Assembly: GCF_014251815.1 (NCBI RefSeq)
Contig: NZ_CP059202.1
Coordinates: forward strand, 1 to 64,000
Origin: Blattabacterium cuenoti
GTDB lineage: Bacteria; Bacteroidota; Bacteroidia; Flavobacteriales; Blattabacteriaceae
DNA: 64,000 bases
Direction: 5' to 3'
Shown piece by piece: positions 56,002 through 60,921 of the stretch (its first letter is position 1; each line of letters starts with the position of its first letter). The notes below the pieces were generated by a model, which made no database searches, was not told the origin of the DNA, and saw only the letters and a list, made by a program, of their open reading frames with translations. The position numbers were made by a program, and so were the translations under genes.

Positions 56002-57201
56002 ATGAATTTATATGAATACCAAGGTAGAGAAATATTGAGTTCTTTTTCAATCCAAGTTCCTTATGGAAGGCTTGCCTCTTCGCCTGAAGAAGCTGTAAAA
56101 GCTGCTGAAATTATTTTCAAAAAAACTAATAAAAATTCTTTAGTCATTAAAGCTCAAATTCATGCTGGAGGTAGAGGAAAAGCTGGTGGTATTCAGATAG
56201 CAAAAAGTTTAAATGAAGTTTATGAAAAATCAAAAAATATTTTAGGAAAATTTTTAGTTACTCCTCAAACTTCAAAAAAAGGAAAATTAGTTAAAAAAAT
56301 TTTATTATCTGAAGATGTTTATTTTTATGAACCCCCTACAGAGTATTATTTGTCTATATTATTGAATCGTGATATAGAAAAAAATATGATTCTTTATTCT
56401 AGAGAAGGGGGGGTTAATATAGAAGAATTATCAAAAAAAAATACAGATAAAATCTGTATAGAAGTAATAGATCCGATATTAGGACTTCAATTTTTTCAAA
56501 CAAGAAAAATAGGTTTTAATTTAGGAATTTATAATAATGAATCTATAAAAAATTTCAGTATTTTTCTTTTTTCGCTTTATAAAGCTTACATGACTTACGA
56601 TGCTTTATTATTAGAGATTAATCCTCTCATAATAACATTTGATAATAAATTTGTTCCAGTTGATATCAAAATGGTTTTGGATAATAACGCTTTGTTTCGT
56701 CATAAAAAATATGATTTGATACAACATGATATAGAGGACATAGAAGGCATTGAAAAAGAAGCAATTGAATATAAGTTAAACTTTTTAAAATTGGAAGGAA
56801 ATGTAGGATGTATGGTAAATGGGGCTGGATTGGCAATGGCTACTATGGATATGATTCAGTCTTGTGGTGGAGTCCCTGCTAATTTTCTAGATATAGGAGG
56901 TTCTGCTGATAGAGAACGTGTAGAAAAAGCTTTTTACTTGATATTAAAAGATAAATCTGTAAAAACAATATTGATTAATATATTTGGAGGAATTGTACGT
57001 TGTGATACAGTTGCAGAAGGAATTATAAATTTTTTTGATAAAATTTATCAGGATGTAGAGATCCCTGTAGTTGTTCGTTTACAAGGAACAAATGAAAAGG
57101 TGGCAAAAAAATTAATTATAAAAAGTTTATTACCGATTTATTTTACTGATACTTTGAAAGAAGCATCTGATAAAATTAAAGAAATTTTGCATCTAAAATA
57201 A
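56002..57201 (+). CDS. sucC: Succinyl-CoA synthetase beta subunit
   Basis: It works with SucD to make ATP or GTP from succinyl-CoA. The 399 residues carry MNLYEYQGREI, the ATP-grasp loop KAQIHAGGRGKAGGIQ (about 50-65), GSADRERVEKAF and the NIFGGIVRCDTVAEG signature (about 330-344). sucD is not next to it. Upstream product succinyl-CoA comes from SucAB in this window. dnaX starts 33 bp downstream. Confidence 0.96.
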   Translation: MNLYEYQGREILSSFSIQVPYGRLASSPEEAVKAAEIIFKKTNKNSLVIKAQIHAGGRGKAGGIQIAKSLNEVYEKSKNILGKFLVTPQTSKKGKLVKKILLSEDVYFYEPPTEYYLSILLNRDIEKNMILYSREGGVNIEELSKKNTDKICIEVIDPILGLQFFQTRKIGFNLGIYNNESIKNFSIFLFSLYKAYMTYDALLLEINPLIITFDNKFVPVDIKMVLDNNALFRHKKYDLIQHDIEDIEGIEKEAIEYKLNFLKLEGNVGCMVNGAGLAMATMDMIQSCGGVPANFLDIGGSADRERVEKAFYLILKDKSVKTILINIFGGIVRCDTVAEGIINFFDKIYQDVEIPVVVRLQGTNEKVAKKLIIKSLLPIYFTDTLKEASDKIKEILHLK

Positions 57202-57234: not shown

Positions 57235-58740
57235 ATGCGTGTGTTATCTGAAAAATATAAACCATTAAAATGGAATGAAGTAATAGGACAAAAAGATATA
57301 ATTTTTGTTTTAAAAAAAGCAATACAAGAAAATCGTTTATCTAAAATTTTATTTTTTTTTGGACCAAAAGGAGTAGGAAAAAGTACATGTGCACGTATTT
57401 TATCAAATGAATTAAATTCTTTTTCAGGATTAGAAGATTTTTCTTTGAATCGATTTGAGATCGATGGTATTTTTAATAATTCATCAGAGTCCATTTATAG
57501 AATCATAAATCAATCTCGTTTTGTTCCTAGGACAGGGATGTATAATATATTTATTATTAATAATATACATATGTTTTCTCTGTGTTCGTTCAATGTTTTT
57601 ATCAAATTTATAGAAGAGAAACATCCACATATATTATTTATTTTTTGTGGAGATGAAGAAAAAAAAATACCAAAATTGATTTTATCACGTTGTCAAGTTT
57701 ATGAGTTTCAAGGACTTTCTACGAAAGAAATTTTTATACATTTGAAAATGATTGCGGAAAAAGAAGATATAGAAATAGAAAATGAAGCATTATTAATTTT
57801 GTCTAAACATGCAAAAGGATCTATTGGAAAAGCTATTTATTTATTTGAAAAATTGATTTTGTATAGTGAAACCAGTATATCCAAAGAATTTCTGATTCAG
57901 AAATTAGGAATCATTGACATTAAATATTATTTTAAGATAGTAGATTGCCTTTTAAATAAAAAAATGCATGAAATGTTTATTTTATTGGGTAAAATTTTAC
58001 AAAAAAAAACTAATTATTATGATTTAATTATAGGATTAATTAAACATTTTAGAAATTTATTTTTATCCAAAAATAATGAAACCATTTCTATTCTAAAATT
58101 TAGAAAGGGAATAATATTCTCTTATATTACGCAATCAAAAAAAATTTCATATTTTTTTTTAATGAACGCTTTGAATATCTGTTTTAGACTAAAAAAAGAA
58201 TATGAAAAAATTCATAAAAATCATCGATTAGTAATTGAAATCTATTTCATGCAATTATCATATTTATTTTATACTCATAATCATAATATGGAAAAAGAAA
58301 TGGAAGAAAACAGGAATAAAAAAGATCTTTCTTTAAAGATGGAAAAAGAAATGGAAGAAAACAGGAATAAAAAAGATTATAAGGATGATGAAAAAATTGA
58401 ACTTTTACAAAAAAATTGGATAAAATTCATACAAAAATTTTCAGATAAAATAAATCCTGTTCATTTATATTTTTTAAAAAATGAGACACGATTCCAAATG
58501 AAAAAAAATAAAATATTTTTTATAATTCCATATAAATTAGAAGATCGCAATATTTTGTTAATTCAAACATATTTTTTGAAGTTTTTTAAAGAAAAATTCA
58601 ATGATCCATATTTAGAATTTGAAATTGTAAAAAAAAATTCAAATAGAATAAAACAATATAATTTATTATATAAGAAAAATAAATTAGTAGAAAGATTAGT
58701 AGAACGATTAAATTTAAAAATTTCTTCTTCTGAAATATAA
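57235..58740 (+). CDS. dnaX: DNA polymerase III subunit gamma/tau, divergent
   Basis: DnaX is the ATPase motor of the clamp loader. The 501 residues keep the N-terminus of the family (EKYKPLKWNEVIGQ), Walker A GPKGVGKST (43-51), FEEKH-type helices and the Arg-finger motif SRCQ (151-154). Walker B, normally hhDExH, reads IINNIHM with Asn109-Asn110 (57559-57564). Sensor 1, normally ATTE, reads CGDE. The zinc module of proteobacterial DnaX is absent, as in flavobacteria. The C-terminal region is Lys-rich and holds a 39-bp duplication. Position and fold fix the identity, but ATP hydrolysis is doubtful. Confidence 0.88.
   Translation: MRVLSEKYKPLKWNEVIGQKDIIFVLKKAIQENRLSKILFFFGPKGVGKSTCARILSNELNSFSGLEDFSLNRFEIDGIFNNSSESIYRIINQSRFVPRTGMYNIFIINNIHMFSLCSFNVFIKFIEEKHPHILFIFCGDEEKKIPKLILSRCQVYEFQGLSTKEIFIHLKMIAEKEDIEIENEALLILSKHAKGSIGKAIYLFEKLILYSETSISKEFLIQKLGIIDIKYYFKIVDCLLNKKMHEMFILLGKILQKKTNYYDLIIGLIKHFRNLFLSKNNETISILKFRKGIIFSYITQSKKISYFFLMNALNICFRLKKEYEKIHKNHRLVIEIYFMQLSYLFYTHNHNMEKEMEENRNKKDLSLKMEKEMEENRNKKDYKDDEKIELLQKNWIKFIQKFSDKINPVHLYFLKNETRFQMKKNKIFFIIPYKLEDRNILLIQTYFLKFFKEKFNDPYLEFEIVKKNSNRIKQYNLLYKKNKLVERLVERLNLKISSSEI
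58288..58377 (+). repeat. Perfect 39-bp in-frame direct repeat inside dnaX
   Basis: The 39-bp unit encoding MEKEMEENRNKKD occurs at 58288-58326 and 58339-58377 with no mismatch, separated by 12 bp. The period of 51 bp keeps the frame. Perfect identity suggests a recent duplication in the linker region of the protein. Confidence 0.95.
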
Positions 58741-58797: not shown

Positions 58798-60921
58798 ATG
58801 ATTCATTATTCTTATTTTTCACAAAACAGTGTAATTCATTTATCTTCTGCTTATTCCGATGAAGATATTGAAAACGATAGTTCTACTTCTTCTTATGGTT
58901 TTGGTGGAAGTGGGACTGGTTCTGGTTATTATGGGGGAGGTGGATCTTCAATTAGAAGTAAAACTCCTGTTCTAGATAATTTTGGAAGAGATTTAAATTC
59001 AATGGCCATAGAAGGAAAGTTAGATCCAGTAGTAGGAAGAGACCAAGAAGTTGAACGTGTATCCCAAATATTGAGTAGAAGAAAAAAAAATAACCCTCTT
59101 CTTATAGGAGAGCCTGGTGTAGGAAAATCTGCAATTGCTGAAGGATTAGCATTACGCATTGTACAAAAAAAAGTTTCTAGAGTGTTATACAATAAAAGAG
59201 TGGTTGTGTTAGATTTAGCAAGTTTAGTTGCTGGAACTAAATATAGAGGGCAATTTGAAGAAAGAATGAAAGCTATTATAAATGAATCAGAAAAAAATAC
59301 AGGATTAATTCTTTTTATAGATGAAATTCATACTATGATTGGAGCAGGGGGTACTACAGGTTCATTGGACGCTTCTAACATATTTAAACCTGCTTTAGCA
59401 AGAGGAGATATTCAATGTATTGGCGCAACTACACTTAATGAATATAGACAATATATAGAAAAAGATGGAGCTTTAGAAAGAAGATTTCAAAAAATTATTG
59501 TGCAACCTTCTTCTGAAAAAGAAACTATAGAAATTTTAAAAAAAATAAAAGGGAAATATGAAACTCATCATAATGTTCTTTATACAGAAGAAGCGATCAA
59601 AGCTTGTGTCCATCTTACTGGACGATATATTGTAGATCGTTTTTTACCTGATAAAGCAATTGATGCTTTAGATGAAGCGGGGTCTCGTGTTCATATAAAA
59701 AATATAAAAGTTCCACAGGAAATAGTTCTTTTAGAAAAAGAATTAGACAGTATTCGAAAAGAGAAATCTAAAGTTGTTAAAAGTCAGAAATATGAAGAGG
59801 CGGCTCGTTTGCGAGATACAGAAAAACGTATAGAAAAACAATTAATCAAAGCCCAAAAAGAATGGGAAGAATCTTCTAAAAAAAATAAAGAAATTGTATC
59901 AGAAGAAAATGTTGAAGAGGTAGTATCTATGATGAGTGGAGTTCCAGTAAACAAGATTGCTCAAGCTGAAATGAAAAAATTGAGCAAAATGATGGACATA
60001 TTAAAGGAAAAAATAGTAGGGCAAGATGAAGCTGTTGAAAAAATAGTAAAAGCTGTTCAAAGAAACAGAACTGGATTGAAAGACCCTAATTCTCCTATAG
60101 GTTCTTTTATTTTTTTAGGACAAACAGGAGTAGGAAAAACTTATTTAGCAAAAATTTTTTCTAAAGAGTTATTTGATTCAGAAGAATCATTAATTCGCAT
60201 AGATATGAGTGAATATATGGAAAAATTTTCTGTATCTAGATTAATAGGAGCCCCTCCAGGTTATGTTGGTTATGAGGAAGGAGGACAATTAACAGAAATT
60301 ATACGTCGTAGACCTTATTCTGTAATATTATTGGATGAAATAGAAAAAGCGCATCATGAAGTATTTAATATATTATTGCAAATATTAGATTATGGATGTG
60401 TAACAGATAGTATTGGTAGGAAAATAAATTTTAAAAATACTGTAATTATTTTTACTTCAAATGCAGGGACACAACAATTAAAAGAGTTTGGTCAAGGGAT
60501 AGGGTTTCATACTCAGGCAAGAAAGTTTAATAATCATATTAAATATGTACTAGAACAAGCTTTAAAACGTACTTTTTCTCCTGAATTTTTAAATAGAATA
60601 GATGATATTATTATTTTTAATTCTTTAACAAAAGAGGACATATCGAAAATTACTCGTATAGAATTAGGTAAAGTGATTCTTCATGTATCCAATTTAGGGT
60701 ACAAATTGGTATTGTTTCCTGAAGTCATAGACTTCATTCAAAAAAAAGGATTTGATCAAGAGTATGGAGCACGACCTTTAAAAAGAGTAATAGAAAAATT
60801 TATCAAAAATCCAATATCAGAATATATAATTAGTGAAAAATTAAAAAAAGGAGATCAAATTTCACTAAAAATGAACACAAATAATGATAACGTGGAAATT
60901 ATGATTTGTAAAATCAAATGA
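58798..60921 (+). CDS. clpC: ClpC-type AAA+ unfoldase lacking the N-terminal domain
   Basis: ClpC unfolds substrates and threads them into ClpP. The 707-residue protein has D1 (Walker A GEPGVGKSA at 104-112, Walker B FIDEIH), a short middle domain with a UVR-like stretch (SQKYEEAARLRDTE) and D2 (Walker A GQTGVGKT near 441, LLDEIEKAHH), plus the ClpP-docking loop GQGIGF near 567. Flavobacterial ClpC is about 840 residues; the missing piece is the N-terminal adaptor/substrate domain. The first 55 residues are a short leader and a Gly/Ser-rich linker. No sign of the lost domain is in the 57 bp upstream. nth follows with a 4-bp overlap. Confidence 0.93.
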   Translation: MIHYSYFSQNSVIHLSSAYSDEDIENDSSTSSYGFGGSGTGSGYYGGGGSSIRSKTPVLDNFGRDLNSMAIEGKLDPVVGRDQEVERVSQILSRRKKNNPLLIGEPGVGKSAIAEGLALRIVQKKVSRVLYNKRVVVLDLASLVAGTKYRGQFEERMKAIINESEKNTGLILFIDEIHTMIGAGGTTGSLDASNIFKPALARGDIQCIGATTLNEYRQYIEKDGALERRFQKIIVQPSSEKETIEILKKIKGKYETHHNVLYTEEAIKACVHLTGRYIVDRFLPDKAIDALDEAGSRVHIKNIKVPQEIVLLEKELDSIRKEKSKVVKSQKYEEAARLRDTEKRIEKQLIKAQKEWEESSKKNKEIVSEENVEEVVSMMSGVPVNKIAQAEMKKLSKMMDILKEKIVGQDEAVEKIVKAVQRNRTGLKDPNSPIGSFIFLGQTGVGKTYLAKIFSKELFDSEESLIRIDMSEYMEKFSVSRLIGAPPGYVGYEEGGQLTEIIRRRPYSVILLDEIEKAHHEVFNILLQILDYGCVTDSIGRKINFKNTVIIFTSNAGTQQLKEFGQGIGFHTQARKFNNHIKYVLEQALKRTFSPEFLNRIDDIIIFNSLTKEDISKITRIELGKVILHVSNLGYKLVLFPEVIDFIQKKGFDQEYGARPLKRVIEKFIKNPISEYIISEKLKKGDQISLKMNTNNDNVEIMICKIK

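Follow-up and report, generated by a model that had tools for sequence, protein, structure and literature searches.

The window, i.e. the entire stretch of 64,000 nucleotides of Blattabacterium cuenoti DNA analysed here, carries a dnaX gene flanked by sucC and a clpC-like gene. Blattabacterium species are bacteria that live inside cockroach cells. The genes and gene parts referred to below are located as follows:

56002..57201, + strand: sucC, upstream flank, used as synteny marker
57235..58740, + strand: dnaX open reading frame (stop included), 501 amino acids, supported by NCBIfam/Pfam matches, synteny and dN/dS
57361..57387, + strand: Walker A, GPKGVGKST, residues 43-51, by alignment
57553..57564, + strand: end of the Walker B strand, IINN, residues 107-110, by alignment and predicted strand
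57646..57657, + strand: sensor 1 region, CGDE, residues 138-141, by alignment
57685..57693, + strand: SRC Arg finger, residues 151-153, by alignment
57817..57834, + strand: sensor 2 region, GSIGKA, residues 195-200, by alignment
57880..58269, + strand: domain III (oligomerization), residues ~216-345, conserved; boundary approximate, from the alignment with E. coli gamma/tau
58270..58392, + strand: variable linker, in which MEKEMEENRNKKD is present twice in the window strain as a tandem duplication
58393..58737, + strand: C-terminal domain, residues 387-501, with homology to its counterpart in flavobacterial full-length DnaX (tau)
58798..60921, + strand: clpC-like gene, downstream flank, used as synteny marker

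The gene product is a DnaX by descent, with homology that spans its full length, i.e. the AAA+ core, the lid and domain III. In profile searches it matches PRK14971 (2.5e-85) and, over residues 2-341, TIGR02397 (4.6e-69), where its 233 bits stay below the curated cut-off of 250; its top PDB matches are E. coli gamma/tau, and the order sucC-dnaX-clpC is conserved within Blattabacterium. It is also the only dnaX present, a condition that a first-pass annotation of this DNA had set for its interpretation: a second copy was sought, and no other gene in the single-contig genome of 624,029 bp lies above the PF13177 cut-off. At the 5' end of the gene (L006-L034), several relatives have no Met opposite the start used in the window (FSVLSEKY...), so that the genus may use a non-ATG start codon or one located a few codons upstream.

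The nucleotide site of DnaX across the genus

In DnaX, the Asp-Glu pair of Walker B holds Mg2+ and activates water. In the window strain, codons 109-110 are AAT AAT (57559-57564), which places Asn-Asn exactly at the position where DE is found in 35 of 35 outgroup DnaX sequences, and the alignment with these sequences reveals no acidic pair shifted to an adjacent residue. Sensor 1 reads FCGDE in contrast to LATTE in relatives, with the Thr of ATTE gone, while the Walker A motif GPKGVGKST and the Arg finger SRCQ are present. The Asn-Asn pair, the altered sensor 1 and the intact Walker A and Arg finger had been read correctly in the first-pass annotation. Further changes go beyond it: the window has GSIGKA where relatives have GS-RDA, i.e. 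the Arg of sensor 2 is gone, and the Mg2+-binding residue of Walker A is Ser (GKS). A sequencing error as the source of Asn-Asn is unlikely, because the nearest relative (G046, 90% identical) has IINN too and the site is occupied throughout the genus by NN, ND, KE, RE and others. An AlphaFold2 model of DnaX built from a three-row alignment is of low confidence (pLDDT 51, pTM 0.29) and was used for secondary structure only; in it, a strand predicted for residues 103-109 ends at the Walker B position.

In order to place these replacements in the genus, 46 Blattabacterium DnaX sequences were compared residue by residue with 35 from outside, i.e. 30 from the order and five from the same family, which include that of the 309,299-bp genome G067 (~300-kb endosymbionts). 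All 35 outgroup sequences retain every residue scored, with one finger residue unread. Within Blattabacterium, Walker A has Asn in place of its Mg2+-binding Thr (GKN) in 41 of 46 sequences, Ser in four and His in one; the Asp of Walker B is retained in a single sequence and its Glu in seven, the Thr of sensor 1 in five and the Arg of sensor 2 in none (as against 35/35 elsewhere). The Arg of the finger persists in 27 sequences and is gone in 19. By contrast with this catalytic set, the P-loop, with its Lys and glycines, as well as the box II positions are unchanged in 46/46. Comparison with other Blattabacterium strains and with flavobacteria, which the first-pass annotation had recommended, thus reveals a genus-wide loss of hydrolytic residues that are intact in the outgroups.

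Residues 1-345 contain 103 positions that are invariant in the outgroups, 24 of which persist in 90% or more of the genus. These 24 include each of the seven nucleotide-binding positions tested (P10, G18, Q19, G43, G46, G48 and K49), but none of the six catalytic positions (Fisher p = 6e-4, with both residue sets chosen by ourselves). Among outgroup-invariant positions, it is not in itself unusual that all six catalytic residues are lost (p = 0.19), because most of these positions relax. With the binding set intact and the catalytic set lost, it appears that the site has given up its hydrolytic half throughout the genus and held on to the P-loop half.

Loader partners, polymerase and clamp

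A working clamp loader consists of three DnaX subunits together with delta and delta', with delta being the subunit that opens the clamp. A search of 49 Blattabacterium genomes with profiles for holA (PF06144, TIGR01128) and holB (PF13177) found no separate holA or holB gene in any of them. Most TIGR01128 matches in the genus are cross-matches to dnaX itself; the remaining ones are weak (E 1e-4 or worse) and lie inside an open reading frame of ~910-930 amino acids near 51-56 kb or its counterpart, and the PF06144 matches are weak and below the cut-off, so neither was taken as delta. The same-family genome G053 and the 309,299-bp G067 match both the holA and the holB profiles, and the controls were detected too.

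The polymerase and the clamp themselves are also altered. The clamp-binding pentapeptide of alpha (DnaE), which is QASLF in G053, QCSLF in G067 and KQSLF in G050, is absent in 49 of 49 Blattabacterium genomes. In beta (DnaN), the C-terminal MP, which in E. coli beta belongs to the peptide-binding pocket, is conserved in 12/12 outgroups and has become MS in all 38 readable Blattabacterium sequences. Thus, the alpha-beta contact has changed on both of its sides. Five Bacteroidetes DnaE1 proteins have previously been described as having no recognizable beta motif, and how processivity arises in these cases has been asked (PMC3919608). The motif is absent in the same way from the DnaE studied here; Blattabacterium is not named in the main text of that paper, and the missing motif is not tied there to DnaX, delta or beta. 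The DnaE open reading frame in the window's genome (L264, G000:C1:343874-344404) also includes an RNase_T-type exonuclease domain, which puts polymerase and exonuclease in one chain. A search of this genome for a PolA polymerase domain gave no match.

The gene for the clamp, dnaN, is present in 41 of 49 genomes and deleted in the other eight, which form one clade in the DnaE tree (bootstrap 99). In seven of these, both neighbours adjoin with no dnaN between them; in the eighth (G015), a single near neighbour could be located, and the gap is wider. A dnaN pseudogene has been listed for strain BPja (PMC6039017). Six of the eight dnaN-less genomes keep dnaX, with that of G009 split in the linker region; in G029 it is gone from between sucC and clpC, and in G038 the copy is broken. 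Conversely, G024 has cleanly lost dnaX, with 205 bp between sucC and clpC, and keeps a dnaN frame of 398 amino acids. With dnaX occurring without dnaN in six genomes and dnaN without dnaX in G024, the losses of the two genes are independent, and no joint function retains both. Altogether, dnaX was lost or broken three times independently (G024, G029 and G038). Decay of the alpha C-terminal domain was looked for in these three genomes without a working dnaX, and none is visible.

Domains of DnaX and selection on dnaX

The C-terminal domain of the window DnaX aligns with flavobacterial DnaX C-terminal domains with an hhalign probability of 94.9 (E 4.4e-8), compared with 0.1 for a reversed control. 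Outside the dnaN-less clade it is about as conserved as the core (0.60 versus 0.59), but inside this clade it is the least conserved domain, with a mean identity of 28% (0.28 versus 0.39 for the core). In three genomes (L021 of G021, L024 of G048 and L028 of G004), the dnaX frame breaks within the linker where about eleven A stand in a row, and a stop follows almost directly. Slippage at such a run, which is known to give short and long products from Thermus dnaX, would here yield a gamma-like short form and a tau-like long form. A fourth split of the frame in the same region (L043 of G009) has no A run.

Pairwise codon models, with omega quoted for unsaturated pairs, gave values of 0.11-0.33 for dnaX; the corresponding values are 0.06-0.14 in sucC and, for the most part, 0.02-0.08 in clpC. 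Between the window strain and G046, dN/dS of dnaX is 0.25. The omega of dnaX is mostly at least twice those of its neighbours, i.e. dnaX evolves two to three times or more faster than they do. For two pairs within the dnaN-less clade, omega = 1 is strongly rejected (LR 121 for G010-G039 and 44 for G011-G022), although the omega value itself is unreliable in these pairs because dS is saturated. All pairs tested thus show purifying selection on dnaX, also those that lack dnaN: selection on DnaX is relaxed but real, even where there is no clamp. Most genomes maintain open frames of 460-540 codons over very long branches.

What DnaX may be retained for

Overall, as far as can be judged from sequence, the Blattabacterium protein descends from DnaX but lacks key residues of an active clamp-loader ATPase. 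Those for Mg2+ binding, water activation and nucleotide sensing are gone or nearly so, the fold, the P-loop, domain III and the tau-type C-terminal domain remain under purifying selection, and the clamp-loading pathway around DnaX is dismantled: no separate delta or delta' gene was found, the alpha motif is missing, the beta pocket is altered, and in one clade dnaN is deleted as well. As DnaX is preserved by selection even without a clamp and with its ATPase lost, its present role in the replication machine is probably structural. We therefore favour, as a reasonably likely reading in which we infer the scaffold step, a pseudo-ATPase DnaX retained as a scaffold of the tau type, within a replicase that operates without standard clamp loading. 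Such a DnaX would oligomerize through domain III, its C-terminal domain would hold the polymerase at the fork, with DnaX perhaps holding the helicase as well, and its nucleotide pocket would either be empty or contain a structural nucleotide that is not hydrolysed; the single-copy replicase, i.e. DnaE with its fused exonuclease, would do without a clamp loaded by the standard route. The broader proposition that chromosomes are made without a standard-loaded sliding clamp, with a pseudo-ATPase DnaX that is purely structural and a clamp that has been re-purposed or discarded, is more tentative and falls just short of what we would call probable. Several observations count against a scaffold: dnaX was lost three times and evolves fast, so it is not indispensable, and in the dnaN-less clade its C-terminal domain is the least conserved one. 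Since no decay of the alpha C-terminal domain is visible where dnaX is lost or broken, the scaffold link also lacks independent support.

The main rival is slow decay. After the loss of delta, delta' and the alpha-beta contact, dnaX may have been left without an essential function and be drifting towards loss in a kind of domino effect, with Asn-Asn representing one decay step under the genome's AT-biased mutation pressure. Many of the replacements do fit such a bias (GAT to AAT, GAA to AAA), the three independent losses or breakages and the elevated omega of dnaX relative to sucC and clpC point in the same direction, and for Portiera a published table places the loss of dnaX, dnaN, holA and holB on a single branch (PMC5322561). 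However, purifying selection in all pairs tested, even without dnaN, the long open frames maintained in most genomes, and a P-loop and box II that are invariant in 46 of 46 sequences all argue against mere drift, and we regard decay as a serious but rather unlikely explanation.

Clearly less probable is what the first-pass annotation had proposed as the consequence of Asn-Asn, namely that ATP binding by DnaX oligomers is enough, without hydrolysis, to place beta on DNA, or that some other energetic scheme is used. A P-loop kept in all sequences and dnaN being present in 41 of 49 genomes would be in line with loading by binding alone, and in known clamp loaders ATP hydrolysis is not necessary for opening the clamp (PMC3331839). 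In RFC, however, the Walker B Glu is itself required for ATP-dependent binding of clamp and DNA (PMC3740443). With Mg2+ ligands and sensors, including sensor 2, lost, no delta or delta' found and alpha without a clamp motif, loading by binding alone is unlikely, and the altered peptide pocket of beta and the retention of dnaX in genomes from which dnaN has been deleted also speak against it. Thus, the loss of hydrolytic residues in a sole dnaX stands, but the consequence proposed for loading is not supported. Finally, that other residues have taken over catalysis and ATP is still hydrolysed is very improbable: the acidic candidates D140, E141 and E142 of the window DnaX (FCGDEEKK) adjoin sensor 1, i.e. 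are off the Walker B strand, and vary within the genus (CGTEEKK, CATEKNK, CSTKDYC); moreover, none of the 46 sequences has the sensor 2 Arg, and 19 are without the Arg finger.

Compared with the DnaX of free-living Flavobacteriales and of E. coli, that of Blattabacterium shows the same order of AAA+ core, lid, domain III and C-terminal domain and shares the P-loop, the SRC finger (in the window strain) and the status of sole dnaX gene, but is without Walker B, sensor 1, sensor 2, the Mg2+-binding Thr and a delta/delta' partner; it also has no zinc module, which several relatives do not have either. To our knowledge, ATP-driven clamp loading is regarded as universal in cellular DNA replication. 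A genus with genomes of 600 kb in which delta, delta', the ATPase residues and the alpha-beta contact are affected in all strains, and beta in one clade, shows this process dismantled while DnaX stays under selection; a natural loss of this kind would separate the scaffold role of DnaX from its loading role, and makes processivity without clamp contact, raised in print for a few Bacteroidetes DnaE1, a testable question.

In the literature searched, which did not extend to the gene-loss paper of Kinjo 2021, we found no earlier description of a Blattabacterium pseudo-ATPase DnaX. A partial parallel is the E subunit of RFC, which likewise keeps the AAA+ fold of a loader and has a site that can bind nucleotide without catalytic activity (PMC3331839); this subunit, however, adjoins active ATPases within the same loader, whereas the sole loader subunit of Blattabacterium looks inactive. 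Portiera, a symbiont of whiteflies, has dnaX, dnaN, holA, holB, dnaQ and ssb in its gene-loss table (PMC5322561), with genes listed as lost on one branch, whereas in most of Blattabacterium a pseudo-ATPase dnaX persists under selection. The same-family genomes G054 and G055 (~274 kb) have, besides a match for holA, only one PF13177 gene (L183, G055:C1:28268-28801), which Blattabacterium DnaX does not match, and G055 also has dnaN; here, the order of loss was possibly the reverse, with loader partners kept and dnaX lost.
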